This document shows positions 1 through 25,457 of a stretch of 50,445 bases of DNA, piece by piece. Origin of the DNA: Candidatus Omnitrophota bacterium (lineage in GTDB: Bacteria; Omnitrophota; Gorgyraeia; Gygaellales; Profunditerraquicolaceae); assembly GCA_028716705.1 (NCBI GenBank), contig JAQUPI010000007.1, positions 1 to 50,445 of the forward strand, written 5' to 3'. The notes under the pieces were generated by a model. That model was not told the origin of the DNA, made no database searches, and was given only the letters and a program-made list of their open reading frames with translations. Made by a program: the position numbers and the translations under genes. The stretch's first letter is position 1. Each line of letters starts with the position of its first letter.

Positions 1-1559
1 TGTTCGTTTTCCGGGTTGATCTTGATCGCCTTGTTGAAGGCGTCGATCGCCTTTTCCATTTCGCCTTTTTCCAGGTAACATAAACCCAGGTCCTGGTTTA
101 TATATCCTCTGTCGGATTTGATAATGCCCAGGGCTTTATTGAACTGCTCTATGGCGCGGTCGAAGTCCTTATTTTTGCGGTAACATAAACCGAGCCCATG
201 GCTGGCGTGTTCATTTTCAGGATGTAGTTGCAGAGCCCGCGAGAAGGTATTTATGGCTTTTTCCACATCGCCTTTTTCCAGATAACAGAAACCCAATTCC
301 TGCAAGGCCAAAATGCTCCCGGGTTTGACGTCCAAAACCGATACAAGCTCGGTAATTGCATCGTCCCATTGCTTCAATCTTCGATAGCAGATCCCCAGGC
401 TTTGATGAGCTTCCTGGCTTTTGGGATCGATCTGGATCGCCTGCCTGAATTCTTCGGCGGCTTTGACCAGATAGCCCTTTTGCGCGTAAAATTCCGCTAA
501 TTTCAGATGAGAGCGAAAACCGAAGTCCTTTTGCTCTTCAAAGGCGACTATAAAGTTGACTACGCAGCATCTTTTTCCCGGCCCGTTCCGGTCAATATCC
601 TTCCTTATCAAGCCGGCTTTATCGGAAAACCATAGGTCCTTCAGATTGTCTTTTCTTATATCCCCCAGGGTTTCACCGCTCAGATAGATGATGCCGGCTT
701 CGTCCAAATCAATGATATAGTCTTTAATCCGGTATGGCGTCTCTTCCATAAATTTTTCGGGGTCGATGTAATAAGATTTAAACGCTTCGAGCTGGGCAAC
801 GGGATTCCATATCTTATATCCTGAGGCTTTCAAACGGATCAATTCATCGATAAGAGAGTGCGTTTTTTTGACATCATGCGGCCAAAGCTCGCCATACTCC
901 GGTTTCTTAAACCAATCTTTACGCGGGTGGACCAGACCGGTCTCAAGCAAAGCTAAGAAAGAAATGTTTGCGAATAGGCTGTTGCTATTGACCCACTCCG
1001 CCAGTTCCAATATGTCGTCTAAATTCTTTTGCATGATAATAGTCAGCACCGTTATCGCCAGGCGGTTTTTGCAATGCTTTTCCAGGTTTTCAACGGCTAT
1101 TTTTACCCTGGAAAGGACGCCTTTTTTGCCCCTCAAGAAATCGTGTGTCTCTTCTTTAAGGCTTTCCAGGGAGATAGCCAGGACGGACAGCCTGGAATCG
1201 GCTATCTTCCTGGCCATGGGCTCGTCTATTAGATAGGCGTTTGTAGAGATTATGGAAGTAAACCCTTTTTCGGCGATAAAACGGCACAGGTCAAGGCACC
1301 ACTCTTTCAAAAGCGGCTCTCCGCCCATGATATTGATTTCCATGGGCGGCTTCACGAACTCCGAAAGCTGCGATATGAATTTCTTGCAATCTTCAAATGA
1401 CAGCTCGTTGGATTCCGCCGGGGTTTTCCACGACCTGCACATTTTACAGCCAAGCATGCACTTGTTTGAGATCACGATGTCGCAAAACCTCGGCCGTCCG
1501 GCGTTGTCGCTGCCGTCTGCGAACGGGTCTTCCACGCTATCCAACCGGTCTTCCTGCAT
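1..1559 (-). CDS. Radical SAM protein with degenerate SPASM domain and C-terminal TPR repeats (partial, runs off the left edge)
   Basis: Translated by hand from an ATG at 1559; the frame stays open to base 1, so the C-terminus lies outside the window. The N-terminal part (residues about 25-330) is a member of the rSAM family that fills this operon: C34-x3-C38-x2-C41 for the catalytic 4Fe-4S cluster, MGGEPLL near residue 80, a SLESLKEETHDFLRG segment and the WPHD motif. The SPASM part is eroded. The positions of the EC and LC cysteines in paralogues read PY and LS, and the final CX3CX5NC tail is reduced to RCCVVNF, so an auxiliary cluster is unlikely. From about residue 350 to the edge there are at least four TPR units of 34 residues (GLCYRKNKDFDRAIEQF type), suggesting a protein-binding or scaffolding role. 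It starts 10 nt after the preceding paralogue ends. It is probably a catalytic rSAM with a partner-docking tail; its substrate is unknown. Confidence 0.85.
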   Translation of the reverse strand, partial: MQEDRLDSVEDPFADGSDNAGRPRFCDIVISNKCMLGCKMCRSWKTPAESNELSFEDCKKFISQLSEFVKPPMEINIMGGEPLLKEWCLDLCRFIAEKGFTSIISTNAYLIDEPMARKIADSRLSVLAISLESLKEETHDFLRGKKGVLSRVKIAVENLEKHCKNRLAITVLTIIMQKNLDDILELAEWVNSNSLFANISFLALLETGLVHPRKDWFKKPEYGELWPHDVKKTHSLIDELIRLKASGYKIWNPVAQLEAFKSYYIDPEKFMEETPYRIKDYIIDLDEAGIIYLSGETLGDIRKDNLKDLWFSDKAGLIRKDIDRNGPGKRCCVVNFIVAFEEQKDFGFRSHLKLAEFYAQKGYLVKAAEEFRQAIQIDPKSQEAHQSLGICYRRLKQWDDAITELVSVLDVKPGSILALQELGFCYLEKGDVEKAINTFSRALQLHPENEHASHGLGLCYRKNKDFDRAIEQFNKALGIIKSDRGYINQDLGLCYLEKGEMEKAIDAFNKAIKINPENE

Positions 1560-1569
1560 AGTTTTTAAG

Positions 1570-2565
1570 TTAAGGCTTTTCTTCTTCAAACCAGCAATTG
1601 ACGAGGATCTGGCAATTCTTTTTACATTCCTTTATCCTCTGCCTGATGGTAACGGCGCGCTGGTTGTTCCATATATCCTTTAAATTATAATCGCGGATAT
1701 TGTTTATCGGCTCCATCAGATAACATAAGAATACATCCCCGCATGAGCCTACGCCCAGAGAATCCCGGCCCAAATGGCATTCTCTTTTCCTTATAAAGCA
1801 TTCCGGGTTGTCGTAATAGCTCAAGAACATTCTTAATTGGGATACGGGATTCCATATCTTAAGGCCCTGCCCTTTGAGTTCGATCAATTCTTCAATGATC
1901 TCTTTCAGCCTGGTTTTATCTTTCGGCCAGAGCTCTCTATATTCGTCTTTCAGGTACCATGCCGGTCCCTCTGGGGTGTAAAAAGGCGCAGTAACCGCCT
2001 GAAAGCTTATCCCGAAGAGCCGCTTGTCGGTGCAAGCCCAGCGGGCAAGGCCAATGAGGTCTTCAAGATTCTTACCGGTGATCAACGTACTGATCTGGAT
2101 ACGCGGTGTTTCTTTTTTAAGCTCCGAAATATGATCTATAGCCCTCATCAAATTATTATAAACCCCCTTTTTTCCCCTGAGGTAATCATGGGTCTCTTCT
2201 TTCAGGCTGTCCAAGGATATGAAAATGATCTCTAGCCCCGAATCAACGATCTTCTTTGCCATCGCCCTGTCTATGAGAAAGGCGTTGGTGGGTATTATTG
2301 TCCGGTAGCCCCTGCCCGCGCAAACGCTGACGATATCCAATATGCCTTCCTTAAGGAAGGGCTCTCCGCCCCCGAATGAGATCGCGATATCCGAATCAAA
2401 GACGTCCGGCAGCGAGTCGATTAAGCCCTTTAATTCTTTTATGGTTAATTCTTCTTTCTCTTCGGATATCTTCCACGCATGGCACATCTTACAGTTCAAG
2501 ACGCATCTTTTAGTCAGCTCTATGTTTATGCTTACCGGTCTATCGTGCATAGTTTTATTCTTCAT
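1570..2565 (-). CDS. Radical SAM/SPASM family protein (array paralogue 2)
   Basis: 331 residues. The catalytic cluster motif is C21-x3-C25-x2-C28, followed by GGGEP at 65-69, where the GGE element contacts SAM in this superfamily. The family-specific THDYLRG, LWPKD and NPVSQL segments are present. The SPASM half keeps all expected cysteines: REC, FLC, and the tail C314-x3-C318-x5-C324. An auxiliary 4Fe-4S cluster is therefore likely. The ATG at 2565 lies inside the last codons of the upstream paralogue (11-nt overlap). A second ATG at 2550, just after that gene's stop, is an alternative start. Neither has a strong Shine-Dalgarno, so translational coupling is likely. SPASM enzymes modify peptides, sugars or amino alcohols by H-atom abstraction; which of these applies here cannot be read from sequence. 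Confidence 0.9.
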   Translation of the reverse strand: MKNKTMHDRPVSINIELTKRCVLNCKMCHAWKISEEKEELTIKELKGLIDSLPDVFDSDIAISFGGGEPFLKEGILDIVSVCAGRGYRTIIPTNAFLIDRAMAKKIVDSGLEIIFISLDSLKEETHDYLRGKKGVYNNLMRAIDHISELKKETPRIQISTLITGKNLEDLIGLARWACTDKRLFGISFQAVTAPFYTPEGPAWYLKDEYRELWPKDKTRLKEIIEELIELKGQGLKIWNPVSQLRMFLSYYDNPECFIRKRECHLGRDSLGVGSCGDVFLCYLMEPINNIRDYNLKDIWNNQRAVTIRQRIKECKKNCQILVNCWFEEEKP

Positions 2566-3592
2566 ACCAGCAGTTCACTAAGTGGTGGCAGGCATTTCTG
2601 CATGACAACATTCTGCCTCTTATTTCTTCTGCCCTCCCGGATTCCCATAATTGCTTTATGCCTGCCTCTTTTATGTTGCCTATAGGATCCATAAAGGGGC
2701 ACAGATTAACGTCTCCATTGGGAGAAATAGAGAAAAAACCGCTTTCAAGCACCCTGCATTTTATCTTTTCCAGGAAGCTTTTTTGCTGCGTAAAATATTC
2801 CCTGAATGTTTCCAGCTGGGATACGGGATTACTGATCTTGCTCGGTTTATTATCATCGCCGCTTAATTTCATCTCTATCAGCCCATCAATTACCGATTTA
2901 ACTTTTTGCGCATCATCCGGCCAAAGCCCGGAATATACGCCCTGTTTCTGCCAGTCTTCCGCCGTAGGGTCATGAAACGGCTGCATAAGCGCCTGCAATA
3001 ATAAGGAAGATATTCTCTCCTTGCCATCCACCCACCTGGCCAATTCCAGGATCCCGTCAAGGTTGGGCTTCATGATAATGGCGTTTACCGCTAAAACCGG
3101 CCTTTCTTTAAAGCCGGGCAGGAATTCGATTATTTCCAGGACTTTTTTATGGCTTCCTTCTACGCCGCGCATGGAATCATGGGTTTTTTCATGCAGGCTG
3201 TCGAGGGAAAGGCCAAGATAATGCAGCCCTGAATCTATCAGTTTTCTGGTCAGTTCGGGATTAAAAAGATAGCCGTTACTGGCGATTGACGCCCAATAGC
3301 CCCTTTTGGAAGAAAATCCAACTAGTTCTAAGAGTTCGGCCTCGCGCAACAAAGGCTCCCCTCCGCCGAAAGTGATCGTAAATTTGTTTTCGCAGTCCCC
3401 CTTTTCTACGAAATCATCAAATGAAGAAATGAAATCTTTCCACTGCGCTATGGAAGGGGCGTTTGAATCGTCTTTGGCAACGCGCCACAAATGGCACATC
3501 CTGCACTTAAAAATGCATTCCAGAGTAAGGATCAAAATGCATCCCTTTGGCTTGATTTTTCCCAAACAATTCTGGTTTTGTTCCGATGGCAT
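2555..3592 (-). CDS. Radical SAM/SPASM family protein (array paralogue 3)
   Basis: 345 residues, with C26-x3-C30-x2-C33 (CIFKCRMCHLW), FGGGEPLL, SLDSLHEKTHD, LWPDD and SNPVSQLE segments in the same order as its neighbours. The SPASM cysteines are complete, ending in C331-x3-C335-x5-C341. A short insertion of Asp, Asn and Lys (around GDDNKPSK) precedes NPVSQL and is not seen in the others. The ATG lies 2 nt after the upstream gene's stop. The codons for that gene's C-terminal KEE (AAGGAAGAA) supply the Shine-Dalgarno at about 8 nt spacing, a good case for coupled translation. An active enzyme with two iron-sulfur clusters is expected; the substrate is unknown. Confidence 0.9.
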   Translation of the reverse strand: MPSEQNQNCLGKIKPKGCILILTLECIFKCRMCHLWRVAKDDSNAPSIAQWKDFISSFDDFVEKGDCENKFTITFGGGEPLLREAELLELVGFSSKRGYWASIASNGYLFNPELTRKLIDSGLHYLGLSLDSLHEKTHDSMRGVEGSHKKVLEIIEFLPGFKERPVLAVNAIIMKPNLDGILELARWVDGKERISSLLLQALMQPFHDPTAEDWQKQGVYSGLWPDDAQKVKSVIDGLIEMKLSGDDNKPSKISNPVSQLETFREYFTQQKSFLEKIKCRVLESGFFSISPNGDVNLCPFMDPIGNIKEAGIKQLWESGRAEEIRGRMLSCRNACHHLVNCWYEE

Positions 3593-3594
3593 GC

Positions 3595-4566
3595 TTATTC
3601 TTCCTTAAAAAAACAATTTACCATTAGCTTGCAGTTTTTCTTACAGGATTTGATCTGCTGCCTGACAGATTCTGCCTTATCCGAGAACCATGCTTTTTTT
3701 ACGTCATCTTTTCTGATGTCGCCGATGGGTTCTTTGTCTAAGCAAAAGAACATTTTGCCTGAAGAATTCACCGTTAAAGAGTCGACGCCTAAGTTACATG
3801 CCCCCTTTTTAATAAAATTCTCTGGCGAAGAAAAATAAGACCTGAATACCTCAAATTGAGAGGAGGCATTGGTGATCTTAAGGCCGCTTTTCTTCAGCTT
3901 TATTAATTCATCCAATGATCGGTTGAGTTCATTTTGGTCCTTGGGCCAAAGGAAGCTGAACGCTTCGTCATTATACCAGGCGCCTTGGCCGGGAGTAAAA
4001 AAAGGCTGCATTACCGCCTGAAAGCTGATATTGGCGACCTCTTTTTTGTCCTGGGCCCAAAGGGCCAGATCGGCAAGTTCTTTTATGTTCGAAGCCATTA
4101 TTGTGGTAACAACATGGATCCTTGGCTTTTCGGCAGCGATAGCCTCAAAATAACCGATCGCATCCATAACCTTATTATAAACGCCTGGTACACCCCTTAA
4201 ATAATCGTGCGTGCGCGGATTCAGGCTATCGAGCGAAAGGACCAAAGTATCAAGGCCGGAGCCGGCAATCCGCAACGCCATGTCTTTATCTATCAAAAAT
4301 CCGTTTGTCGTCATGGAAGAGATGAATTTATTTTGGGAAGAAAAACGGATAATATCGATGATGCCCCGCTTCATCAAAGGTTCGCCTCCAACGAAATGGA
4401 CATGCGTTTGTTTTCCGCATAAATCTTTTAAAGAAAAAAGCAGATCCATCCATGCTTCGGCCGGCATCTCCTCGGGGTCATTTTTGCATTCCCACATATG
4501 GCACATTTTGCATTTAAGAAGGCAATTTTCCAGCAGCACTAAATGGCAGTTAAACGTCTCGCTCAC
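3595..4566 (-). CDS. Radical SAM/SPASM family protein (array paralogue 4)
   Basis: 323 residues from a GTG start at 4566. This start is preferred over an in-frame TTG at 4572 because AAGGAG sits 7 nt upstream of the GTG. Catalytic cysteines are C15-x3-C19-x2-C22 (CLLKCKMCHMW), then FVGGEPLM, SLDSLNPRTHDYLRG, FLWPKD and NASSQFE, a slightly altered version of the NPxSQL motif. SPASM cysteines are intact (GAC, FFC and a CKKNC-x5-C tail). Its C-terminal FFKEE codons act as the ribosome-binding site of the next gene. It has the same predicted biochemistry as its neighbours but is clearly diverged from them, so it is not a recent copy. Confidence 0.9.
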   Translation of the reverse strand: MSETFNCHLVLLENCLLKCKMCHMWECKNDPEEMPAEAWMDLLFSLKDLCGKQTHVHFVGGEPLMKRGIIDIIRFSSQNKFISSMTTNGFLIDKDMALRIAGSGLDTLVLSLDSLNPRTHDYLRGVPGVYNKVMDAIGYFEAIAAEKPRIHVVTTIMASNIKELADLALWAQDKKEVANISFQAVMQPFFTPGQGAWYNDEAFSFLWPKDQNELNRSLDELIKLKKSGLKITNASSQFEVFRSYFSSPENFIKKGACNLGVDSLTVNSSGKMFFCLDKEPIGDIRKDDVKKAWFSDKAESVRQQIKSCKKNCKLMVNCFFKEE

Positions 4567-4577
4567 AGCCAAACTCC

Positions 4578-5558
4578 TTATTCTTCCTTAAAAAAACAGT
4601 TCACTATATTGTTGCAGGCTAAAGCGCAATTACGCATTTTTGTTCTCAATTGATCGGCCTCTTTCGAATACCAGAGAGATTTTATATCAGAGTTCTTTAT
4701 GTTCCCTATTGCCCTGTCAAAACAGCATAGAAGCACATTTCCCGCGTTGTCTACATTCAGGACATAGTCTCCGGAACGGCATTTTTTATCCGTTACCCTT
4801 TTTTCCGGGTTTTCAAAATAAGATTTGAACAACTTTAGCTGGGAAACCGGGTTACTGATAAAGTTATCCCTTTCTTTTAATTCTATCAGTTCGTCTATGA
4901 TCCTGCCTGCTTCAATGGTATCCCGGGGCCACAAGAATCCGAATTCGCTTTCTGCATACCATCGCTTGCCTGCCGAAGAGAAAAAAGGGCAAGCGATGGC
5001 TTGAAAGTATAAAGAATCGATCCTCCCCTGGCGCCTGGCCCAATCGGCGTGCTCCCGGACTTGAGCCAGATTCTTACCGGAAATTACCGTTATGATCTCG
5101 ACCCTTGGCGAGTTTTTTTCCTTTTTAAGATGATCTATGGCGCTGATAACTTTTTTATAAGACCCTGGGACGCCCCTTAAGAAATCATGTGTTTCCTCTA
5201 TGTAGCTATCCATTGATATAGATATCTGATCAAGCCCTGAGCCCGCTATCCGTTTCGCCATTTCTTTATCTATCAAAAAGGCATTTGATACCATTATGGC
5301 CTTAAGTCCCATTTTTTTACAAAAAGTGACCAGATCTAAAACGCCCTCTTTTAATAAGGGCTCTCCGCCGCTTATGACAATCTCCCCTTTGCCTTCAAAA
5401 AGAACGCAAAGTTTTTCAATAAAGCCTTTCCATTCTTCAATACTAAGCTCCTGCCTGTTATCCGTCTTCCACATATGGCACATCTTGCATTTTAATACGC
5501 ATTTTGTAAGAAGCACTATGGAGCATGAAAGCGGGGGCTTGGTGTCTGTAGGGGTCAT
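4578..5558 (-). CDS. Radical SAM/SPASM family protein (array paralogue 5)
   Basis: 326 residues. C20-x3-C24-x2-C27 in CVLKCKMCHMW is followed by ISGGEPLL and then SMDSYIEETHDFLRG, where Met replaces the usual Leu in SLDS. FLWPRD and ISNPVSQLKLF mark the linker before SPASM. The SPASM cysteines are KKC, LLCC and C311-x3-C315-x5-C321. The ATG start has only a distant GGGAAG upstream, and the gene lies 7 nt from the preceding stop. An intact two-cluster rSAM enzyme is predicted. Residues between about 150 and 210, which line the substrate side of the barrel in this superfamily, differ strongly from neighbours, suggesting a different substrate position or specificity (inference). Confidence 0.9.
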   Translation of the reverse strand: MTPTDTKPPLSCSIVLLTKCVLKCKMCHMWKTDNRQELSIEEWKGFIEKLCVLFEGKGEIVISGGEPLLKEGVLDLVTFCKKMGLKAIMVSNAFLIDKEMAKRIAGSGLDQISISMDSYIEETHDFLRGVPGSYKKVISAIDHLKKEKNSPRVEIITVISGKNLAQVREHADWARRQGRIDSLYFQAIACPFFSSAGKRWYAESEFGFLWPRDTIEAGRIIDELIELKERDNFISNPVSQLKLFKSYFENPEKRVTDKKCRSGDYVLNVDNAGNVLLCCFDRAIGNIKNSDIKSLWYSKEADQLRTKMRNCALACNNIVNCFFKEE

Positions 5559-5565
5559 TTTAATA

Positions 5566-6549
5566 TTAGAATTCTTCCCTTTCCCTGAACCAGCAATTAA
5601 TAATGTTGTTGCAGATCAATTTACATTCATACATCATCCGCCTGGCGTTGTCAGCGCTCTCTGAACGCCATATGTTAATGATACTGTCGTTCTTTATGTT
5701 CCCGACAGCCCCGATAAACGGGCATAACATGACCTCCCCGATCCGGTTCACGTTTATGATATGATCGCCGAAATTACACCGGGACTTTCTTATCAACCCT
5801 TGCGGGTCGCCGTAATACTCTTTGAACAATTGCAACTGGGGGATCGAATTTCCTATCTTATAATCCAGCTTTTTGAATTCTATTAATTTATCCAATACTG
5901 AGCGCACTTTTTTAATGTCCCTGGGCCAGATGTCGGCATATTCCTCTTTTTTGTGCCAGAGTTCATCGTAGGGGGCGTAAAACGGCTGGGCCAAAGCCTG
6001 AAAGCCTATGCCCGCTATAAGCTTATCCCCCTGCACCCACTTTGCAAGCTCTACAATGTCGTCTAAGTTAATCTCTTTTATGATGGTATTTATGTAAACC
6101 TGCCTCTTTTGCCAATATTTCCTGAGATGTCCGATAGCGCCCATTATCCTGTCATACGAATAATCTACACCCCTCAAAAAATCGTGGATTTCCCTGTTCA
6201 TGCTTGCCAAGGATAATATGATTTTTGTTAATCCGGCATCAAAAAGGTTCTTGACGGTTTCTTCATCAAGAAGGTAACCGTTTGTTGCCATAGAAGTGGA
6301 AAACCCGTTATCCGCGCACAAACGGATTATCTTCAGTATATCTTTTCTCAATAACGGCTCTCCTCCGCTCAGGTTGATCTCAAGGGGCCTGCCGTCCACG
6401 AGCTTTTCAAGGTCATTAAGCAAGGCTTCGCATTGAGAAAACGTCAATTCGGTGGAATCGCCGTATTTCCACATATGGCACATCTTGCAGCGCATATTAC
6501 ATTTCTCTACCAGCAGCAAATCAAGCGCAACCGGAAACTTTTCTTCCAT
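5566..6549 (-). CDS. Radical SAM/SPASM family protein (array paralogue 6)
   Basis: 327 residues from the ATG at 6549, which overlaps the upstream stop as TAATG. A longer reading from a TTG at 6585 would overlap the upstream gene by 37 nt and is less likely. The cluster motif is C17-x3-C21-x2-C24 (CNMRCKMCHMW), then LSGGEPLLRK. SLASMNREIHDFLRG has Ala for the usual Asp and Ile for Thr in otherwise conserved positions. DIWPRD and NSIPQLQLF follow. SPASM cysteines are complete, with a tail at C309, C313 and C319. The SLDS-to-SLAS change is a small departure from the family and may alter substrate contacts. Confidence 0.9.
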   Translation of the reverse strand: MEEKFPVALDLLLVEKCNMRCKMCHMWKYGDSTELTFSQCEALLNDLEKLVDGRPLEINLSGGEPLLRKDILKIIRLCADNGFSTSMATNGYLLDEETVKNLFDAGLTKIILSLASMNREIHDFLRGVDYSYDRIMGAIGHLRKYWQKRQVYINTIIKEINLDDIVELAKWVQGDKLIAGIGFQALAQPFYAPYDELWHKKEEYADIWPRDIKKVRSVLDKLIEFKKLDYKIGNSIPQLQLFKEYYGDPQGLIRKSRCNFGDHIINVNRIGEVMLCPFIGAVGNIKNDSIINIWRSESADNARRMMYECKLICNNIINCWFREREEF

Positions 6550-7553: not shown

Positions 7554-7554
7554 C

Positions 7555-8529: not shown

Positions 8530-8531
8530 TA

Positions 8532-9557: not shown

Positions 9558-9691
9558 TCGTCCTCGAAGAAACAGTTTACAAAATATTCGCAGGCCTTTT
9601 CGCAGCATAGCATCCTTCTTCTTGCCTCCTCAGCGCGGTTGTTTAAAATATCCGATATGTGATCCTGGAGTATATTCCCGAGGCCGCCCAT
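9554..9691 (-). CDS. 45-residue ORF matching only the SPASM tail of the rSAM array family (remnant or free mini-domain)
   Basis: Translated by hand. ATG at 9691 with AGGAGA 8 nt upstream; the stop overlaps the ATG of the next rSAM gene as ATGA. The product aligns only with the last 45 residues of its rSAM neighbours: LGNILQDHISDILNN corresponds to their GNIxxDxIxxIW segment, and CCEKACEYFVNCFF to their CX3CX5NCFF tail. An in-frame stop lies directly before the ATG and there is no rSAM core upstream. It is therefore either the 3' remnant of a deleted 17th paralogue that regained a ribosome-binding site, or a deliberately translated cysteine-rich peptide. The good Shine-Dalgarno and coupling to the next gene favour continued translation. 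Confidence 0.6.
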   Translation of the reverse strand: MGGLGNILQDHISDILNNRAEEARRRMLCCEKACEYFVNCFFEDE

Positions 9692-9698
9692 TTATAAT

Positions 9699-9704
9699 TC
9701 TCCT
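9699..9704 (-). promoter_or_regulatory. Ribosome-binding site of the 45-residue SPASM-tail ORF
   Basis: AGGAGA on the minus strand, 8 nt before the ATG at 9691. It is one of the better Shine-Dalgarno sequences in this operon and is the main reason to treat the small ORF as translated. Confidence 0.6.
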
Positions 9705-15373: not shown

Positions 15374-15523
15374 TTATTTATTCCTGGCGAACTGCTTCCA
15401 GTCTATGCCTCTTCTCGCGCACATACTGCGCCATTTGATATATTTTATCCCCCTGTAGAGGGCGTAAAAAACCCCTCCATTCTTAAAATGTTTGGCAAAT
15501 TTCTGCCAATTTGTCTCTGCCAT
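15374..15523 (-). CDS. Small basic protein, 49 residues, unknown function
   Basis: Hand-translated ORF with ATG at 15523 and a near-consensus AAGGAGG Shine-Dalgarno, sitting exactly between two rSAM genes (18 nt after one, 13 nt before the next). The product starts MAETNWQKFAKHF, contains GGVFYALYRGIKYIKWR and ends GIDWKQFARNK. It is strongly basic (about 14 Lys/Arg against 2 acidic residues), aromatic-rich and likely helical and amphipathic, with one cysteine. I do not recognise the family. Possible roles are a small accessory or chaperone protein, a membrane-associated anchor, or a peptide substrate for an adjacent radical enzyme. The last has no direct support, because no leader/core architecture or repeated core motif is visible. 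Confidence 0.6.
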   Translation of the reverse strand: MAETNWQKFAKHFKNGGVFYALYRGIKYIKWRSMCARRGIDWKQFARNK

Positions 15524-15534: not shown

Positions 15535-15541
15535 TTTTGAA

Positions 15542-16837: not shown

Positions 16838-16839
16838 TT

Positions 16840-19038
16840 TCAGCTGGACTTTCGTTTGCTAAAATCCTCTTCAACGATCTTTATTATCCCCGAGAATAAT
16901 TTATGTATACCGGGAGCGTATCCGGCATCCCCATTTTTATTGAAGGCTTTTACCCCGATCATGCGCGCCCCTGCCCCCGCGGGAAAAACCACATTCTTTA
17001 CCAGCGGAACATAGTTGGCGTTGTTTTCTGATAAATCCAACAATACAGTAGGTATCTGGCCTCTTAGTTTTTTTCTGCCTCTCAGGCCGATAAAAATACT
17101 TTTCGGATTTCTAAGCTCCGCTTCCATGGTATTATGCACAGGCGGGAAAAAGCCTTCCCCCCAGGAATCTACCCATTTAAGATATCTTTCCGATAAGATA
17201 ACTCCGATTTTCTTTTTGGGGATTTTTATCTCTTTTTTAATGTTTATTTCTATGTCCCAGGAGATCTGCTTTTCGTCTATAACCTTGATTTTCCATATTT
17301 CATCAAGGGCTAAGTTTTCCAGCCTTCTCCTCAGCAGAAATTCATTGGCATTCAACTTCTGCGTATTCCACGGATAAACTTTTTCCCTTTCGAATTTTTC
17401 CACGTCCGGGAAGAAGGAGCTTATTAACCCTTCGGCTCGGGTTAATTTCATATTATCCCAATATAACTCTAATCCGCCCGGGGTAAAAAGCAACGTTAAC
17501 CTGCCTATCTTTAACCCGGCTTCCTTTATTTCTTTCTCTATTTCTTTTTTATAAAGAACTCTTTCTCTTAAAAACAGAAGTGCCCTCCGCGATAAAAACC
17601 TGGCTGTCTTAAACAAAGTCATAAGGAATCCGTATCTTGCCAGTGATTTCAAAATTAATTGGCAATAGCCCGCATTTATCGCGGTCTTCCTCTTGGCGCA
17701 ATGAAGTGCCCATTCTTTATATGCCGACCTTATGGCATACTGAAGATCTTTTTTTGTAATATTCCCGTACTCTATTACGCTGTTATTATTGCCGTCATAT
17801 TCGGCCCAATTATTAGAAAGCAGGCACCCTTTTTGTTCCATCTCTTTATAAAATTGCGTCCCGGGGAAAGGCGTGGCAATGGAAAATTGGATCGTAGTGG
17901 GATCCAGTCTTAGCGCGAAATCTATCGTTTTGCGTACTGTCTCTTTAGTTTCTCCGGGCAAACCGAACGTAAATGTAAGGTGGGTCTTTATGCCTAGCAT
18001 TTTCGTAAGTTTGATTATCTCTTCGGTCTTGCCGATGTCCATGTTCTTATCTATATTATCCAACAGCTTCTGGCTTGCTGATTCCACTCCGTATTTGACC
18101 GCGTACAAACCCGCCTCTCTCATGTTTTCTAAGATTTCTTCGTCCATCAGATCGGCCCTTGCCATGATCGCCCACGGGATATTCAATTTGCGTTTTTTTA
18201 CTTCGTCACAGAATAAAAGCATCCTCGCTTTCCCGATATTAAAAGTGTCGTCGTCAAAATATATCGATTTGAAGCCCATTTCTTTTGCCAAATACTCCAT
18301 CTCATCTACTACATCAGCTACGTCGCGGGTCCTGTAATGGCTGCTCTGGTACATAACCTGCGGCCAGAGACAGAATTTACATTTATAGGGGCATCCGCGG
18401 CTTGCGAGTATTTGCGCCGAAGGCAAAGGCATGTCTCCGGGCGTGTCATTATAGCGCTCCATAGGCAATCCTTCCCGTAGCGGCCAACAAAGCCCGTCCA
18501 GATCAACGACCGGCCGAGAGGGATTGATCTTTACATCTCCTGAATAATCGCGGTAAATAAGTCCTGGGACACCGCTTAAATCCCTGCCTTCCTTCAAGTG
18601 CCTGGCTAGATCCAGAAGCGCAAATTCGTATTCTCCGATAAGGACATAATTTATGAATTTGTGATTTTTAAGGAATCCCTTCTGTCTTATATTGGTGTCC
18701 GGCCCGCAGATAGTTATAGGGATGCCTTTTTCGATCTTTGCCAACAATCTTAAATCATGCTCCAGCGTAACCGTGGACGTTTCGCAAACAAGAAGGTCGG
18801 GCTTTGTCCTTTTTATCAGCCTCAGGAATTGCCCGTAGAACATATCTTCTGCGATAGCGTCGATCAAGCTGATTTCAAAGTGATGCTTTTTTAACAAAGC
18901 CGCGCTGTAGGATAAAAAGAAGGGGAAAGGCAGATAATCCCTTTCTGTCGGGCCTTTTAAATGCGGCCACCGGGAACCGGCCCTTACGCCCGTCCGGGCA
19001 AGAGTCCTCCAGGGAAGGTTGACAAGCGCTATCTTCAT
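16840..19038 (-). CDS. B12-binding radical SAM protein with a C-terminal copy of the shared operon module
   Basis: 732 residues. Residues 1-180 form a Rossmann-like cobalamin-binding domain as in BchE/HpnJ-type proteins. The rSAM domain has C216-x3-C220-x2-C223 in SRGCPYKCKFC, then FDDDTFNI and FGLPGETKETV blocks typical of B12-rSAM enzymes, which often carry out methyl transfer or ring chemistry. A basic linker (about 430-500) leads to a C-terminal domain of about 220 residues (LTLLFTPGGLELYWDNMKL onward, including ISWDIEI and LSERYLKWV). This domain matches the modules of the exporter ATPase and of the upstream 1114-residue protein. The fusion is unusual for this family and suggests that the enzyme binds the same ligand as the exporter. 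The start overlaps the upstream stop as ATGA. Confidence 0.88.
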   Translation of the reverse strand: MKIALVNLPWRTLARTGVRAGSRWPHLKGPTERDYLPFPFFLSYSAALLKKHHFEISLIDAIAEDMFYGQFLRLIKRTKPDLLVCETSTVTLEHDLRLLAKIEKGIPITICGPDTNIRQKGFLKNHKFINYVLIGEYEFALLDLARHLKEGRDLSGVPGLIYRDYSGDVKINPSRPVVDLDGLCWPLREGLPMERYNDTPGDMPLPSAQILASRGCPYKCKFCLWPQVMYQSSHYRTRDVADVVDEMEYLAKEMGFKSIYFDDDTFNIGKARMLLFCDEVKKRKLNIPWAIMARADLMDEEILENMREAGLYAVKYGVESASQKLLDNIDKNMDIGKTEEIIKLTKMLGIKTHLTFTFGLPGETKETVRKTIDFALRLDPTTIQFSIATPFPGTQFYKEMEQKGCLLSNNWAEYDGNNNSVIEYGNITKKDLQYAIRSAYKEWALHCAKRKTAINAGYCQLILKSLARYGFLMTLFKTARFLSRRALLFLRERVLYKKEIEKEIKEAGLKIGRLTLLFTPGGLELYWDNMKLTRAEGLISSFFPDVEKFEREKVYPWNTQKLNANEFLLRRRLENLALDEIWKIKVIDEKQISWDIEINIKKEIKIPKKKIGVILSERYLKWVDSWGEGFFPPVHNTMEAELRNPKSIFIGLRGRKKLRGQIPTVLLDLSENNANYVPLVKNVVFPAGAGARMIGVKAFNKNGDAGYAPGIHKLFSGIIKIVEEDFSKRKSS

Positions 19039-22000
19039 AACGAGGCTTTATCTAAGAATTTATTGAGCTTATACTTTTCCAGCAATCCATTTATCATCAG
19101 GATCACCTGGTGGGTGTCGCAATGGCTGCAAAACTCATCGTATAATTTTCTTCCATTGCCGAAGGTGACATCTTTATTCTCCATCAGGTATTTAGCCTGT
19201 GTTCTGATTTTATTGTACGATTCGGAATCCCACAGTTGCGCGAAGTTTTTCCCGTCCAAACTTCCAAGGGTGCGCAGGTGGCAGCACATACTTAACTCTC
19301 CGCGCGCCAATGCCAGGCAAAAAAACCACCCCACGGGGCAGCCGGTCTTTAAAAAGGTTTTTCCTGCCCAGGAACCGCTGGAGGGGTCATAATTCTTTAG
19401 TTGAAAATAAATATTATCCTGCAGTTCTATATTTTCTTTCTTCAAATAAGGCGCGACTTTTTTTAGGGATTCGCTCATTGCCTCGACATGGCTGCGGCTT
19501 AATTTCAAAGACTTGATATTCTCATCTAACCGTACCAGATAAAATCTTACCTTATCCGCTCCTATATACGCATCCGCTTTGGCCATCTCTTCCATTTCCT
19601 GATAGTTCAAATTGTGGATAACATGGCTCATCTGCAATATCGGCTTGTCCCTGCCGGAAGCCTTTCTTAACGATATAAGACCCTTTAAATTCTCAACGAT
19701 CAAAGGGAATGTATCTTTGGATTGTTTAGGATTTATCAATGCGTAAGTCTTATCTGTTCCCGCGGGAAGGCTGCAGAATATCTCGTTTATCTCCAGGTCC
19801 ATTATTCGCCTTGCCTTCTCTTTGTCCATAAGTATGCCGTTGGTAAAAAACAGCACCTTCATCCCCTTGTCTCTCGCGTAGCCGGCCATTTCAAAGAACC
19901 GCTCATCCAGAAGCGGCTCCCCGTCCCCCTGGAATATTATCTCATCGCTTAGTAAGCTTACCGCGTCGTCGACAATATTTTTATACAGCTGGAAATCCAT
20001 TTTTATGTTAATTGATCTCGGGGGGATCTTGCGTAAAGGCGTGTGTATCCAGCAATGGAGACAATTGGTATTGCAACGGTGATTCGTATCGATAACTATC
20101 GTCTGCGGGCCAATAAAGGGGTGTTCGCTGATGATCCCGAGCAGCCTGAGAAGCTCTTTTTCATTATATTGATCTGCCTGCAAAGAAACATTCCAGAGCA
20201 GGTCCAGTAATTCTTCGTCTTTTAAAAACAGGTTGACCTTGCTTGACGAGAGGCGTTCATTCAATTCTTTTACATATTCCCTGAAATTAGAATAAAGGTT
20301 TTTTACCGGGAAAAGTTTTAAGGAAATGGAACGCAGGTCTTGACGCCTGTTTATCAGCCCGGAACAGAACTGGGCAATTGTATTCAGTTTGAAGAAGTTA
20401 AGTCTCGAAATGCCAATTTTCAGATTAATGCTTTCTTTTCTTGCCGACCGTATCCTTGATATTATTCTTTCAAAGTCGCCGTCTTCAGAACTGATCTTAT
20501 CGTGTAATTCCGGACGATCCCCGAATATATATTCGCTTCTTTCTTCTTTCGGAGTGATCCTCTTTATATCCTCTTTAAATATTGAAAAGGCATTTTCCTT
20601 GGCTTCTTTTTCTTTCCGCCGCTTCTCCTCTTCGGCTTCTCTTTCTTTTCTACGCATCTCCTCTTCTTGAGCCTTTCTCAGCTGTTCCTGTTCCTGCTTG
20701 ACCCTCAGCTCTTCCAGCCGCTTTCTCTCTTCTATATATTTTTTCCGCTGCTCGATCTGCCGCCTTCTTTCTTCTTCCTCTGCTTGGCGTATTTTATTCA
20801 AGGCGACTTCCAGGACAGCCTTGTCGGCGTAAAGCTGGATAACGGCTTTTAGATAAGGATAAGTTCCCGGCCGGTAAAGCTCTTTTTCCTCCTCAAACTG
20901 CACTTCCACTACCCGGGAAGAAAGATTGGCGTCCGTATTGGATATCAACAGCGAGGCTTTTGTATCCTGCAAATTCTTCAGGGTTATGTCTGGAAGGTTG
21001 TCTGAAGATGAAATCACCCCTATGAATTCAGGGTTATCCGCGGCTGAATTCATGCACTGCCATCCGGAATTAAAACCAGGGGAGAAATGCTCCTGCTTGG
21101 GAGGGGCAACCCATTCCTTGTACGCTTTGGATAAAAATAGGGCGGCATTCCGGCGATCTATGCGCAGGGGCTGTTTGATCTCAACATCTACATCCCAGGT
21201 AAGTTTTCCCTCGGCATTAAGTTCCAAATGCCAGGTTTGAATAAGAGGGAGGCGATTATGGGTAAGCCTGACAACCATTTCATGGGAAGAGGGTTTTTCT
21301 ATTTGCGCATGCGAATCCACAGAGCTGTACCAATTGCTTTCGCAAAGTATCCCGAAATTAAGGCCGCTTCCCTTGGTTGATTCATTATTTTTATAGTAAA
21401 TATGCATCTGGTTCTGATGGTCAAAATAGAGCCGGAAAGGACCGTTATCTAAGTTGCGGCGTTTCTCGTCTTCGTCCCGGGCCTTGCGCAAGAGCGCTTC
21501 TTCCTTTTCCTTTAGTTCCAGCTGGAGTTTTCGCTCTTCTTCCCTGGCTTCTTCCTGGGCCTTGCGCAAGAGCGCTTCTTCCTTTTCCTTTAGTTCCAGC
21601 TGGAGTTTTCGCTCTTCTTCCTCCGCTTGTCTTATTTTCTCAAGGATATCCTGCAAAATAGCCTTATCGCCGTAAAACTGGATTACGGATCTCAGGTAAG
21701 GGTATGGCCCCGGCCGGTAGAGTTCTTTCCCCTCCTCAAACTGCACTTCCATTACCCGGGAAGAAAGATTGGCGTCCGTATTGGATATCAACAGCGAGGC
21801 TTTTGTATCCTGGCATTCCTTAAGGATAATATCGGGAAAATCGTCTTTTAGAGAGGCGCACCCGATAAAATCAACCGCCTCTTTGGGCAAATTTACAGGC
21901 TGCCAGCAGGGGCCGAACTCTGGCGAGAACGCATCTGTTCTTTGGGGGATTACCCATCGCGAATATGACTTAGATAAGAAAATTTTAGCGCTTTTTAGAT

Positions 22001-22379
22001 CTATACGCAGCGGTTCCTTTAATTCCATATCTACATCCCATATGATGCTGCCTTCGCCGGTTATCTTAATCCGCCAGATCTGGTCCGCGGGCAGGGTAGG
22101 CGACTTCACGTTAATCCTTAACTCCTGCTCCGATATTTTGTTAACCTCAAACTCCGAATCCGAAGAATAATGCCTCGCGCCTTCCGATAATATCTCTGTA
22201 CTTAATCCGCAGTGCTTGGTCAATTCGTTTTCTTTAAAATACAGTCTCGCTCTTTTTTGGTTATCGAAGATTATTTTCAGCTCGCCATTCTGTATTGTCC
22301 GGGAATCGGTATTCTCCTTCTCCGATATCCTGTTATATTCTTCTATTTTATTCTTTAATTTTGCTATTAATGGCCACAT
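19035..22379 (-). CDS. Large fusion: two shared modules, two coiled coils and a C-terminal radical SAM/SPASM domain
   Basis: 1114 residues with an ATG at 22379 and AGGAGG about 11 nt upstream. Layout by eye: module A (about 30-245); a Glu/Lys coiled coil (245-305) containing a perfect internal repeat; module B (about 310-528); a second coiled coil (528-605, EEERRRQIEQRKKYIEERK type); a mixed region (605-750); and a rSAM domain (about 755-1090) with CNTNCLHCW and QGDGEPLLDE, where GDGE replaces the usual GGE. The SPASM part has TGCPVGW, MCCHLR and FCSHCDTH cysteines. Modules A and B share an almost identical C-terminal half. The coiled coils suggest oligomerisation or a long reach between the ligand-binding modules and the catalytic domain. 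It is the largest enzyme of the operon and the one most closely tied to the exporter by shared domains. Confidence 0.88.
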   Translation of the reverse strand: MWPLIAKLKNKIEEYNRISEKENTDSRTIQNGELKIIFDNQKRARLYFKENELTKHCGLSTEILSEGARHYSSDSEFEVNKISEQELRINVKSPTLPADQIWRIKITGEGSIIWDVDMELKEPLRIDLKSAKIFLSKSYSRWVIPQRTDAFSPEFGPCWQPVNLPKEAVDFIGCASLKDDFPDIILKECQDTKASLLISNTDANLSSRVMEVQFEEGKELYRPGPYPYLRSVIQFYGDKAILQDILEKIRQAEEEERKLQLELKEKEEALLRKAQEEAREEERKLQLELKEKEEALLRKARDEDEKRRNLDNGPFRLYFDHQNQMHIYYKNNESTKGSGLNFGILCESNWYSSVDSHAQIEKPSSHEMVVRLTHNRLPLIQTWHLELNAEGKLTWDVDVEIKQPLRIDRRNAALFLSKAYKEWVAPPKQEHFSPGFNSGWQCMNSAADNPEFIGVISSSDNLPDITLKNLQDTKASLLISNTDANLSSRVVEVQFEEEKELYRPGTYPYLKAVIQLYADKAVLEVALNKIRQAEEEERRRQIEQRKKYIEERKRLEELRVKQEQEQLRKAQEEEMRRKEREAEEEKRRKEKEAKENAFSIFKEDIKRITPKEERSEYIFGDRPELHDKISSEDGDFERIISRIRSARKESINLKIGISRLNFFKLNTIAQFCSGLINRRQDLRSISLKLFPVKNLYSNFREYVKELNERLSSSKVNLFLKDEELLDLLWNVSLQADQYNEKELLRLLGIISEHPFIGPQTIVIDTNHRCNTNCLHCWIHTPLRKIPPRSINIKMDFQLYKNIVDDAVSLLSDEIIFQGDGEPLLDERFFEMAGYARDKGMKVLFFTNGILMDKEKARRIMDLEINEIFCSLPAGTDKTYALINPKQSKDTFPLIVENLKGLISLRKASGRDKPILQMSHVIHNLNYQEMEEMAKADAYIGADKVRFYLVRLDENIKSLKLSRSHVEAMSESLKKVAPYLKKENIELQDNIYFQLKNYDPSSGSWAGKTFLKTGCPVGWFFCLALARGELSMCCHLRTLGSLDGKNFAQLWDSESYNKIRTQAKYLMENKDVTFGNGRKLYDEFCSHCDTHQVILMINGLLEKYKLNKFLDKASL
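20888..20969. repeat. 82-bp near-identical direct repeat, copy 1 (inside module B)
   Basis: Matches 21731-21812 with a single mismatch that I can see. It encodes the NTDANLSSRV-containing end of module B. The flanking parts of the two modules are far more diverged, which points to gene conversion or selection on this segment. Confidence 0.85.
21479..21621. repeat. In-frame tandem duplication of 78 bp in the coiled-coil region
   Basis: Two copies of a unit of about 63 bp, beginning at 21481 and 21559 (period 78 bp, 26 codons). They are identical over the segment encoding EERKLQLELKEKEEALLRKA. A 26-residue step keeps an approximate heptad register, so it lengthens the coiled coil without breaking it. 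Confidence 0.85.
21731..21812. repeat. 82-bp near-identical direct repeat, copy 2 (inside module A)
   Basis: Partner of 20888-20969 in the same orientation and reading frame, encoding the corresponding end of module A. The two copies are 843 bp apart. Confidence 0.85.
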
Positions 22380-22400
22380 GGAAATTTATTCCTCCTCACC

Positions 22401-23450
22401 TTATCCTGCGCACTCCGATGCTAAGCTGTCTTCTGCTTCGTAGCCGCAATTAATTAAGATATGACAATTTGCTTTGCATTTTCTTATCTTTTCTCTCATG
22501 CGGTCAGCTGTTTTGGAATACCATATGTCTTTAGGAAGGTCGGTCTTTATATTCCCGATCACCGGCATCATCCCGCAGGTACGTACATCCCCGAACTGGT
22601 CTACGGTCATATAAAAATCCACGTTGCAAGCGGATTTCCTGATAAATCTTCCCGGATTATCAAAATATGTTTTAAATATTTCCAGCTGGCAGAAAGTATT
22701 AGCGATCTTGTATCCGGAATGTTTCAGTCTTATCAATTCATCAATTACCCGGTGGACCCGCGTTATATTTTTCGGCCATAGCGTATTGTATTCCTTTTTT
22801 TTATGCCAGCCATTGACAGGAGGCGTAAAAAATGTCTGCGCCAGCGCCTGAAAGCAAATGTGGTCTATCCTTTTACGAGCCTCGGCCCATTCGGTTAACC
22901 CGATGATCTCGTCCAGATTATTCTCTAATATCACCGTTTGGATGCCTATCGTAAGGCCGCCGCAATGCTTATCCAGATGATCTATGCCCTGCATGACTTT
23001 ATCGTAACAGCCTTCTGTGCCTCTTAAAAAATCATGGGTAGACCGGTTCATACTATCGAGTGAAATAGTTATCGAATTCAGCCCGCTGCGGGATATCCTG
23101 CGGGCCTTATCCGCATCTATCAGAAAACCGCTGGTATTCAAGGAAGTGCATAGGCCTCTGTCGGAGCAAAAAGCGATTAAATCCAAATTCCTGCTGTCAG
23201 ATAATGGTTCCGCTCCCGAGAAATTTATCTCTATAGAATCCTCGCTTAATTCGGCGAGCAGACTGATAAAATCCTTCCATTCGTTCAGGGTCGGCTGCCT
23301 GCCGGAATTAGCGCCTCTCAACTTCCAGGCAAAGCACATTTTGCATTTAAGTAAACATACCGAAGAAATTTCTATACAGCAGAACGCGGGGCGGCGGGTT
23401 TGCGCAGACCTGCTTTCAGATCTTAAGAAACTATCTGATTTATATTGCAT
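22401..23450 (-). CDS. Radical SAM/SPASM family protein (array paralogue 14), GGE changed to GAE
   Basis: 349 residues from the ATG at 23450, 2 nt after the upstream stop; a TTG at 23456 is the longer alternative. Catalytic cysteines are C32-x3-C36-x2-C39 (CLLKCKMCFAW). The SAM-contacting element reads FSGAEPLS: the second Gly of the family GGE is Ala, an unusual change. SLDSMNRSTHDFLRG, LWPKN (Asn for Asp) and IANTFCQLEIF are further deviations from the consensus. SPASM cysteines are SAC, RTC and CKANC-x5-C. It shares HCGGLTIGIQTVI and related stretches with paralogue 15, its clear sister. Whether the Ala weakens SAM binding is uncertain. Confidence 0.88.
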   Translation of the reverse strand: MQYKSDSFLRSESRSAQTRRPAFCCIEISSVCLLKCKMCFAWKLRGANSGRQPTLNEWKDFISLLAELSEDSIEINFSGAEPLSDSRNLDLIAFCSDRGLCTSLNTSGFLIDADKARRISRSGLNSITISLDSMNRSTHDFLRGTEGCYDKVMQGIDHLDKHCGGLTIGIQTVILENNLDEIIGLTEWAEARKRIDHICFQALAQTFFTPPVNGWHKKKEYNTLWPKNITRVHRVIDELIRLKHSGYKIANTFCQLEIFKTYFDNPGRFIRKSACNVDFYMTVDQFGDVRTCGMMPVIGNIKTDLPKDIWYSKTADRMREKIRKCKANCHILINCGYEAEDSLASECAG

Positions 23451-23452
23451 AA

Positions 23453-24487
23453 TCAATTCCCGATGTTCTGTCTGATCTCATTCCCTAAAAGCGGCGGATG
23501 CTCTTCCTTGTAACAGCAATTCACCAGATGATGGCAATTATCCCTGCATTTACCCATTTCTTTTCTTATCCGGTCTACCTTCTGAGAATGCCAAAATTCT
23601 TCCGGAGCGAACGTCCTTATATTACCTATGGATTCTTTACGTAAGCATAAGAATATGTCTCCAAATTGATTTATATTCATATAATTCTCGCTTACGTTGC
23701 ATTTTCCCTGTTTGATAAATTTACCGGGGTCAGCGAAATACGCCTTAAAGATTTCTAATTGAGAAACCGGGTTGGTTATTTTATATCCGGACCCTTTCAG
23801 CCTTATCAATTCATCAATGACATTGTTTACCCTGTGCGTATCCCTGGGCCACAAAAAAGCGTATTCACTTTTGTTATGCCACTCAAGATCAAGCGGGGTA
23901 TTAAAAGGATGTTCTATTGCCTGAAAAACAATGTACCTGATCCTTCGATGCGCGTTGACCCACTCAGTCAGCCTGATAACCTCATCCAAATTCCTATCGG
24001 ATATAACTGTCTGGATGCCTATGGTAAGATGGCCGCAGTGTCTTTCAAGATGATCGATCCCTTTCATTATTTTATCGTAAGAGCCCTGCACGCCCCTTAA
24101 GAAATCATGGGTATTTTCGTCGATGCCGTCCAAAGAAATACCGATCACGTCTAATCCGCTCCGCGCGATTGAGGACGCCATTTCCTTATTTATAAGAAAA
24201 CCGTTGCTCGATAATGAAGTGTATACCCCTTTTTTCGCGGCAAAATCAACGAGTTTTAAGTTCCTTTCATCCAGCAAAGGTTCTCCCCCGGCAAGATTGA
24301 TCTCGACTGTATTTTCGCCCAGATCAGCCAACAGGCTGATAAAATTATACCACTCCTGTAATGTAGGCTCCTGTTCAGTTCTTTCATATTTATTTTTCCA
24401 GAAAAAACACATCTTGCACTTAAAGATGCATTCCTGGGAAATGCCGATGCAGCAAAAAATGCGCTTAGGAATAATCTGTGTAATCAT
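23453..24487 (-). CDS. Radical SAM/SPASM family protein (array paralogue 15)
   Basis: 344 residues from the ATG at 24487, overlapping the upstream gene by 23 nt. A TTG at 24541 would extend it 54 nt further into that gene and adds no conserved residues. The motif C20-x3-C24-x2-C27 lies in CIFKCKMCFFW. LAGGEPLL, SLDGIDENTHDFLRG, FLWPRD and ITNPVSQLEIF follow in canonical order. SPASM cysteines are GKC, FLC and CRDNC-x5-C. It is the intact sister of paralogue 14; the two share long stretches between residues 150 and 260. An active enzyme is predicted, possibly acting on the same substrate class as paralogue 14. Confidence 0.88.
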   Translation of the reverse strand: MITQIIPKRIFCCIGISQECIFKCKMCFFWKNKYERTEQEPTLQEWYNFISLLADLGENTVEINLAGGEPLLDERNLKLVDFAAKKGVYTSLSSNGFLINKEMASSIARSGLDVIGISLDGIDENTHDFLRGVQGSYDKIMKGIDHLERHCGHLTIGIQTVISDRNLDEVIRLTEWVNAHRRIRYIVFQAIEHPFNTPLDLEWHNKSEYAFLWPRDTHRVNNVIDELIRLKGSGYKITNPVSQLEIFKAYFADPGKFIKQGKCNVSENYMNINQFGDIFLCLRKESIGNIRTFAPEEFWHSQKVDRIRKEMGKCRDNCHHLVNCCYKEEHPPLLGNEIRQNIGN

Positions 24488-25457
24488 TCTCTTTAAAAGA
24501 GCAGTTGAGCAGAAAATGACAAAATTTCTTACATCCGGCAATCTCGCTCCTTATCCGGGCCGCTTCCCGCGAATGCCAAATCTCGTCGATAGTATTATCC
24601 CTGACGTTGCCTATGGGGCCCTTGGAGAAACAAAGATATACGTCACCGTATGGATCTATGTTTATATCGCGTTCTCCTATAGTGCAATTCAAATTTTTAC
24701 AAGCGCAGAGCGGATCCTCAAAATATTTCGCGAACATTTTAAGCTGAGAACTCGTATTGGCTATTTTCTTATTCCGGGCCTTCTTGATCGTAATCCGCTC
24801 CATAGCTCTCTTCGCCTTTGCGGTATCTTGCGGCCACATAAACTTGTAGCCGTCATTTTTAAACCAGTTAACGTCCCGGCCCGCTCCGAAAGGAAACATG
24901 GGTGCCAAGTACAAAATGTAATCTATCCGCCCGTCTTCTTGAACCCAATCGGCCATATCTACGGCTTCTTCCAGGTTTACATCCATGATAATGGTCTGTA
25001 TATTTATTCCGATATCCGGACCGATCTTAGACAAATAATCCATGGCCTTAAAAACTTTTGCATAGGAGCCCTTCCTGCCGCGCAAATAATCGTGCACTTC
25101 TTCCTTTAAGCTGTAAAGAGAAATGCATACCCTCCACAAACCGGCGTCCGCCAGTTTCCTTGCCAATTCATCATCTATTAAGAAAGCGTTTGTTTGCAGG
25201 GAGACCCTATACCCGATCCTGGAACAATGGGAAATTAAATCTATCAGGCCTTCCTTGAGAAGCGGTTCACCGCCGGTAATAATAATATCGGTTTTTTTAT
25301 CCAACACTTTAGGCAAATGGGTCAGCGCTTCTTTCCATTTTTCCGCGGGCAGCTCCCTCGAAAAATCCTCCTTCTGCTTCCATATATAACAGGCCCTGCA
25401 TTGCATCAAACATTTTAAAGTAACGGAAAAACAACAATAACTCGGGTGCTCATTCAT
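24465..25457 (-). CDS. Radical SAM/SPASM family protein (array paralogue 16, nearest the exporter)
   Basis: 330 residues with an ATG at 25457, 18 nt after the exporter ATPase gene. It is the first rSAM gene of the transcript. Its cluster motif C16-x3-C20-x2-C23 is CLMQCRACYIW, whereas most other members carry KMC (one has RMC). ITGGEPLLKE, SLYSLKEEVHDYLRG (Tyr for Asp of SLDS), FMWPQD and IANTSSQLKMF follow. SPASM cysteines are NLNC, YLC and CKKFC-x5-C, ending in SFKEND. The Asp-to-Tyr change in SLDS and the RAC variant set it apart, so a distinct substrate is plausible (inference). Confidence 0.9.
   Translation of the reverse strand: MNEHPSYCCFSVTLKCLMQCRACYIWKQKEDFSRELPAEKWKEALTHLPKVLDKKTDIIITGGEPLLKEGLIDLISHCSRIGYRVSLQTNAFLIDDELARKLADAGLWRVCISLYSLKEEVHDYLRGRKGSYAKVFKAMDYLSKIGPDIGINIQTIIMDVNLEEAVDMADWVQEDGRIDYILYLAPMFPFGAGRDVNWFKNDGYKFMWPQDTAKAKRAMERITIKKARNKKIANTSSQLKMFAKYFEDPLCACKNLNCTIGERDINIDPYGDVYLCFSKGPIGNVRDNTIDEIWHSREAARIRSEIAGCKKFCHFLLNCSFKENDYTDYS

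Follow-up and report, generated by a model that had tools for sequence, protein, structure and literature searches.

A domain of Wzt in the Wzm/Wzt O-antigen exporter of A. aeolicus recognises a chemical cap carried by the chain (PMC9445017), and HpnJ, a radical S-adenosylmethionine (rSAM) enzyme, forms the cyclitol ether of bacteriohopanetetrol (BHT), starting from the glucosaminyl lipid (PMC12583986). Here, we analyze a locus in which likenesses to both stand next to an array of 16 tandem rSAM paralogues and the C-terminal remnant of a further one, all on the minus strand at positions 3-25457 of the window, i.e. of the entire contig C7 (50,445 nucleotides) of the Omnitrophota metagenome-assembled genome (MAG) G000 (1.87 Mb). 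Our interpretation is that this array is probably a non-redundant tailoring line whose substrate is an exported lipid-linked glycan. Radical chemistry on sugars is represented by the enzymes BlsE, AprD4, NeoN, AviX12, and BtrN, some of which work on assembled oligosaccharides. A precedent for several paralogues that modify one exported polysaccharide are the mannuronan C5-epimerases AlgE1-7 of Azotobacter.

The locus agrees with each of these systems in part. As in A. aeolicus, its predicted exporter combines an ABC-2 permease with an ATPase (ABC, ATP-binding cassette) carrying C-terminal modules, and a WecA-like priming enzyme is encoded next to it; in contrast to the O-antigen exporter, the modules are predicted super-beta-sandwiches, number 2-11 per exporter, and are also found in rSAM enzymes. 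HpnJ, which itself acts on lipid-linked glucosamine, is the best match among curated families for the B12-binding rSAM protein encoded at 16840-19038; however, the score is 263 bits versus a cut-off of 577.6, which is below the equivalog level, the protein carries a module, and no hopanoid genes were recognised nearby. The sugar-acting rSAM enzymes named above are encoded by single genes in antibiotic pathways, whereas the family of the array passes no curated cut-off. The AlgE enzymes are non-rSAM proteins that are secreted, have overlapping specificities, and form no phylum-wide fixed cassette. With the SPASM maturases SkfB, CteB, and SuiB of ribosomally synthesized and post-translationally modified peptides (RiPPs), the array shares superfamily and general fold; unlike them, it has five auxiliary cysteines instead of seven, and no precursor is established. 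In the open-licence literature, we found neither an rSAM/SPASM enzyme tied to Wzt or O-antigen loci nor a described system with such an rSAM array, and the available parts of the literature on Omnitrophota and radical SAM report none. To our knowledge, rSAM arrays have not been described in O-antigen loci, nor has another row of paralogous rSAM enzymes of this length.

That 16 tandem paralogues and a remnant belong to one diverged family had been proposed in a sequence-only reading of this DNA and is borne out. Full-length identities between members are 31-55% for nearly all pairs (one pair has 30% in one direction), and one family profile assigns 360-493 bits to all 16 members; the next G000 protein outside the array and contig C26 reaches 171 bits. 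PF04055 exceeded its cut-off at 16/16 array positions. The proteins do not scatter over many unrelated rSAM families, and chance as the origin of this observation is excluded. In the whole genome of G000, 75 radical SAM matches were counted.

The operon-like run on the minus strand starts at 31401 with the genes of the WecA-like enzyme, an oxidoreductase, the Wzm-like permease, and the Wzt-like ATPase. Then follow the members F01 (24465-25457), assigned by PF04055, PF13186, motifs, and the family profile, as well as F02 (23453-24541) and F03 (22401-23456), assigned by identity, motifs, and the profile; the latter two constitute a close pair (55% identical). After three other rSAM genes that do not belong to the family (beginning at 19035, 16840, and 15542) and a small open reading frame (ORF) come F04 (14272-15360), F05 (13181-14257), F06 (12119-13165), and F07 (11099-12106), and, behind a GDSL gene and the remnant, F08 (8532-9608), F09 (7555-8529), F10 (6549-7553), F11 (5566-6585), F12 (4578-5558), F13 (3595-4572), F14 (2555-3592), and F15 (1570-2565). 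F04 to F15 were assigned by identity, motifs, and tree position, F12 additionally by an AlphaFold2 model. The remnant (about 9557-9691) comprises the C-terminal ~45 residues of a lost member, as indicated by its translation and by a match to profile positions 286-332 (E-value 5e-8). As the open frame 8532-9608 overlaps the remnant in another frame, the true start of F08 is probably near 9557. The last member, F16 (3-1589), consists of an rSAM core and tetratricopeptide repeats (TPRs), lacks the auxiliary-cluster cysteines, and runs off the contig to continue on C26. The window end and the start of C26 overlap by 55 bp; C26 contains TPR sequence, then a 17th member at 682-1650, and then another rSAM gene. 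Because TPRs are repeats, the join of C7 and C26 is likely but not certain.

The motifs CX3CX2C and HDx[LMI]RG are present in 16/16 members, and the CX3CX2C triad is intact in every row covering that region among 157 aligned members. The C-terminal motif had been misread as CX3CX5NC; it is CX3CX4NC (i.e. CX3CX5C) and occurs in 15/16 members, and the motifs NPxSQL and WPxD, also claimed as shared, are kept only loosely. Only five C-terminal cysteines are invariant, namely C260-x12-G-x4-C278 and C311-x3-C315-x5-C321. The SPASM pattern of seven cysteines corresponds to two auxiliary clusters; in its cysteines, the family deviates from this pattern. F01, the only typical member submitted to Pfam, scored 41.6 bits with PF13186 (SPASM; cut-off 21.5), and the Pfam scan of the aberrant F16 gave no SPASM match: its TPRs take the place where the cysteine-rich tail would be. 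The auxiliary-cluster cysteines are lost throughout the F16 group in six genomes and in member 4 of the archaeal locus L039, which groups there. Three array members were tested against the NCBIfam rSAM families (NirJ2, AhbD, GeoRSP, BlsE, and others) and passed no listed cut-off; the best score was 109 bits, with a cut-off of 500 (NirJ2). Four related loci encode two adjacent members fused into one protein (L028:15074-17134, L029:4472-6547, L024:1380-3389, and L030:16473-18674).

Related loci were searched with a six-row subset of the member alignment as query, and a tree of the 157 members (quick search, support from the Shimodaira-Hasegawa-like approximate likelihood ratio test only) resolves groups with one member per genome, many of them strongly supported. 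These orthologous groups span G000, G008, G016, G121, G146, G254, G190, and G202; those of F06 and F07 rank among the best conserved. When the order of reciprocal best hits was compared, the numbers of concordant and discordant gene pairs were 55/0 for G000-G121, 66/0 for G121-G190, and 28/0 for G000-G146, and the same order was found in nearly every well-sampled pair of long arrays. The exception is G008-G146 (15/6); the G008 cassette is fragmented. The shorter f36-type arrays (4-5 members) keep an order among themselves (6/0 each). The mean identity of orthologues is 52-83% per genome pair versus 34-40% for paralogues within a genome, and the ratio of nonsynonymous to synonymous substitution rates (dN/dS) is 0.05-0.15 for orthologue pairs with estimable dS, signaling purifying selection.

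For the division of labour among the paralogues, we ranked positions that are conserved within but different between groups, having delimited the groups by visual inspection of the tree. The barrel strands, 38 residues in all, hold 14 of the top 40 group-specific positions (Fisher test, 2e-5, uncorrected for phylogeny), and within each of the six predicted strands all of them have the same parity. This arrangement is consistent with side chains that, according to the model, face the lumen, where SAM and substrate meet. Conserved order, 1:1 orthologues, purifying selection, and group-specific lumen residues favour fixed steps over a variable repertoire; that the paralogues perform fixed, non-redundant steps is therefore well supported, and the array is not a lineage-specific repertoire.

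The similarity of the arrays does not follow that of their genomes: between G016 and G121, RecA is 95% and the arrays are 59% alike, whereas between G254 and G190 the values are 64% and 70%. As RecA and array similarity disagree, the block probably moves horizontally between lineages, like surface-glycan loci, as judged from these sequence comparisons. Arrays of 4-17 members occur in several families and classes of Omnitrophota, and the presence of the cassette is patchy within the phylum. In an order-level survey, a strong member was found in 12/128 genomes and the module in 40/128. Arrays of at least four members are present in six genomes of the same family and in 13 elsewhere in the phylum, two of these outside the class, and the module was detected in 19/19 of these genomes, i.e. 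none has such an array without module proteins. Where the fetched contigs reach the start of an array, it is usually marked by a module-bearing ATPase. Three archaeal MAGs (L037, L038, and L039) contain tandem arrays of the same family with about ten members each, L039 together with a Wzt/TagH-like ATPase; this suggests transfer between domains. An HpnJ-like B12-binding rSAM protein accompanies the arrays in bacteria and in L039. A hidden module at the C-terminus of the archaeal exporter was considered and found unsupported (hhalign probability 0.2).

The genes that precede and interrupt the array bear on the substrate. The first gene of the operon (30427-31401) encodes a WecA/TagO-like polyprenyl-phosphate sugar-1-phosphate transferase (PF00953 Glycos_transf_4, 110 bits; best NCBIfam match ECA_wecA with 91 bits, under that cut-off). 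The second (29129-30538) encodes an FAD-dependent oxidoreductase of the PRK07208/amine-oxidase type, UDP-galactopyranose-mutase-like, which is found at the same place in L020, L022, and L023. The Wzm-like ABC-2 permease (28303-29085; PF01061, 58.6 bits; galactan_ABC_perm, 49 bits, under cut-off) and the Wzt-like ATPase (25476-28301; PF00005, with teichoic and galactan export ATPases as best NCBIfam matches) have the sequence hallmarks of a Wzm/Wzt-type glycan exporter; the nearest relatives by sequence are teichoic/galactan exporters, with scores under their equivalog cut-offs. Walker A, signature, and Walker B are all kept in the module-bearing Wzt-type ATPases. The C-terminal part of the ATPase consists of three copies of a module that we name MOD (residues 243-454, 483-691, and 726-939). 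Two MODs, a coiled coil, and an rSAM/SPASM part form a protein of 1114 residues (19035-22379), whose architecture recurs in related cassettes, and the HpnJ-like protein (16840-19038), for which AprD4 (6fd2) is the nearest solved structure, carries one MOD at its C-terminus (residues 512-721). MOD thus occurs both in the exporter ATPase and in two rSAM enzymes; relatives have it in a PMT-type protein as well. A separate rSAM/SPASM protein of 431 residues (15542-16837) is conserved just before the main array. The GDSL/SGNH hydrolase within the array (9766-11124; PF13472, 67 bits) has a TPR insert, and GDSL genes recur in related cassettes. In the near-complete relative G016, the array is followed by genes for four glycosyltransferases (two of group 1 and two of group 2), a sugar epimerase/dehydratase, and a PMT-MOD protein.

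The predicted structure of MOD is all-beta with a predicted local distance difference test (pLDDT) score of 95.6. A galactosaminidase domain was its best fold match, followed by OpgG, GalM, and other mutarotase-like folds; among solved structures, no sequence relatives of MOD were found. Pfam reported only ABC_tran in the exporter ATPase and no Wzt_C, and the modeled MOD fold differs from the latter. On the basis of the model, MOD would be a new exporter module with a mutarotase-like (super-beta-sandwich) fold of the sugar-binding type. By eye, the number of MOD copies on the exporter (2-11) has no consistent relation to the number of array members (0-17). An exporter ATPase upstream of the array in G202 (L101-L102, contig C178) has 2743 residues and 11 modules.

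The structure of the array family was represented by the AlphaFold2 model of F12 (pLDDT 94.1). The family lies close to SkfB, BlsE, anSME, NirJ2, and AhbD in sequence and fold, and GDGT-MAS is among the sequence matches to solved structures. The best TM-score of the model, 0.74 both ways, is that to the sugar-nucleoside enzyme BlsE; SkfB and anSME are also among its top fold matches, and the rank of BlsE does not decide the substrate.

In the mechanism that we propose, the WecA-like enzyme would prime a polyprenyl carrier with a sugar, and glycosyltransferases, some encoded elsewhere, would extend the primed chain. About 17 paralogous rSAM/SPASM enzymes, the associated rSAM enzymes, and the HpnJ-like B12-binding protein would carry out radical reactions at separate sugar positions, each paralogue being responsible for its own fixed step; the reactions might be C-H chemistry, for instance epimerisation, deoxygenation, oxidation, or a change of the ring. 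The MODs, carried by the exporter ATPase and two rSAM enzymes, would bind the glycan, such that only a correctly modified chain is passed to Wzm/Wzt. We infer the glycan substrate, the reaction types, the function of MOD as a glycan reader, and the number of steps; we do not claim that gene order is the order of action. The MOD fold, the cap-reading Wzt precedent, the likeness to HpnJ, and the G016 glycosyltransferases together favour a lipid-linked glycan, and the sugar context suggested by the sequence-only reading is strengthened by the mutarotase-like exporter module, the HpnJ-like protein, and these glycosyltransferases.

Several observations speak against this glycan interpretation. The WecA-like enzyme is the only recognisable sugar transferase in the operon of the window. 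Cassettes with exporter and MOD but without array are common, which means that export as such does not require the array; G004, a member of the same genus, has exporter, modules, and core rSAM genes in its cassette and no array member. The linkage of array and exporter expected by the sequence-only reading holds in one direction: in the 19 genomes with at least four members, the array comes with modules, but the core exporter also exists without an array. The modeled MOD fold is also near glycoside hydrolase domains and, further down the list, the periplasmic domain of YidC, no binding residue was identified in MOD, and the archaeal Wzt/TagH-like ATPase of L039 has no detectable MOD. By sequence, the array family is about equally close to rSAM enzymes acting on heme (NirJ2, AhbD) and on peptides (SkfB), so the family itself is no proof of sugars. 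Finally, block transfer alone would keep gene order, which consequently is no proof of sequential action.

An alternative that keeps the sugars is the sequential action of the enzymes on a monomeric substrate, either an unusual sugar nucleotide or a lipid-linked precursor, rather than on a polymer. BlsE, BtrN, DesII, and AprD4 have small sugars or nucleosides as substrates, and together with the top TM-score of BlsE and the few glycosyltransferases in the operon this speaks for a monomer; a monomer that undergoes at least thirteen separate radical steps would, however, be extreme, and the fusion of MOD both to the exporter and to two rSAM enzymes suggests that these proteins touch the exported chain, which makes this alternative unlikely. 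The enzymes might also modify the polyprenyl or membrane lipid carrier by cross-linking or tethering. We regard this as very unlikely: rSAM enzymes like GDGT-MAS do act on lipids and HpnJ acts on a hopanoid glycoside, but the cassette contains no recognisable lipid-synthesis genes, and the fold of the shared module is predicted to be of the carbohydrate type. Redundant copies or a variable repertoire due to recent tandem duplication, serving dosage or antigenic variation, would be in line with the remnant and the close pair F02/F03, which show gain and loss, and with the patchy presence of the cassette. Given the 1:1 groups in the same order across classes, paralogues that average so little identity, strongly purifying selection, and the group-specific lumen residues, this explanation is barely tenable. 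Of the two options left by the sequence-only reading, an assembly line or a repertoire of specificities, the fixed steps have thus been retained and the recent or variable repertoire is rejected by orthology, gene order, and selection.

The remaining alternative is a peptide system, in which the array would modify residues of one ribosomal peptide and the ABC transporter would export it. SPASM enzymes often act on peptides, as the fold matches SkfB and anSME illustrate, and a candidate substrate would be the product of the conserved, aromatic-rich ORF of 49 codons with a Shine-Dalgarno site at 15374-15523 (minus strand). Such an ORF (46-49 residues) lies between the separate rSAM gene and F04, directly before the main array, in six genomes (G000, G008, G016, G121, G146, and G254); the RNA structure of this gap has a z-score of -3.1. 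In contrast, it was not detected in the fetched G190, G202, f36-type, and archaeal array loci, and a MOD-B12-rSAM protein of G004 has a homologous segment as its N-terminus, as expected for a helper. From this limited distribution and the homology to an enzyme N-terminus, the product was judged a probable helper peptide and not a RiPP precursor. Moreover, the exporter is of the glycan type, neither a leader peptidase nor a recognition domain is among the annotated genes, and the WecA-like enzyme and the MOD proteins would be left unexplained, so that a peptide substrate appears rather improbable.

The rest of the window (31976-50443) contains genes of B12-binding rSAM proteins (31976, 35211, and 46219), a sulfatase (36939-38528), a U32 peptidase (41964-43136), and PMT-type membrane proteins (40268 and 44640). 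No known RNAs, including riboswitches, reached the gathering threshold in the window, and no tRNA genes were found there. Close to related cassettes, carbamoyltransferases of the NodU/CmcH type are encoded at L020:2934-4781 and L009:10996-12000, and L009:6780-9550 contains two consecutive ORFs with near-identical starts that look sulfatase-like on reading (VVIIVIDSLRPDHLSCYGYP).

If the glycan interpretation is taken to its full extent, Omnitrophota and some archaea would possess an ordered radical line in which about 13-17 orthologues act once each at a fixed position of a defined long glycan, or themselves build and cross-link its backbone, and in which repeated carbohydrate modules check that the chain is complete before it is exported; such a polymer would have no described counterpart. 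We put this forward as a tentative proposal. Because order and 1:1 orthology are fixed across classes and archaeal relatives exist, the notion of one enzyme for one position is directly testable. MOD, as modeled, would represent a new exporter module that could read the completion of a glycan. Should the substrate indeed be a glycan, a widespread and almost uncultured phylum would produce a polysaccharide with many radical-made sugar modifications.

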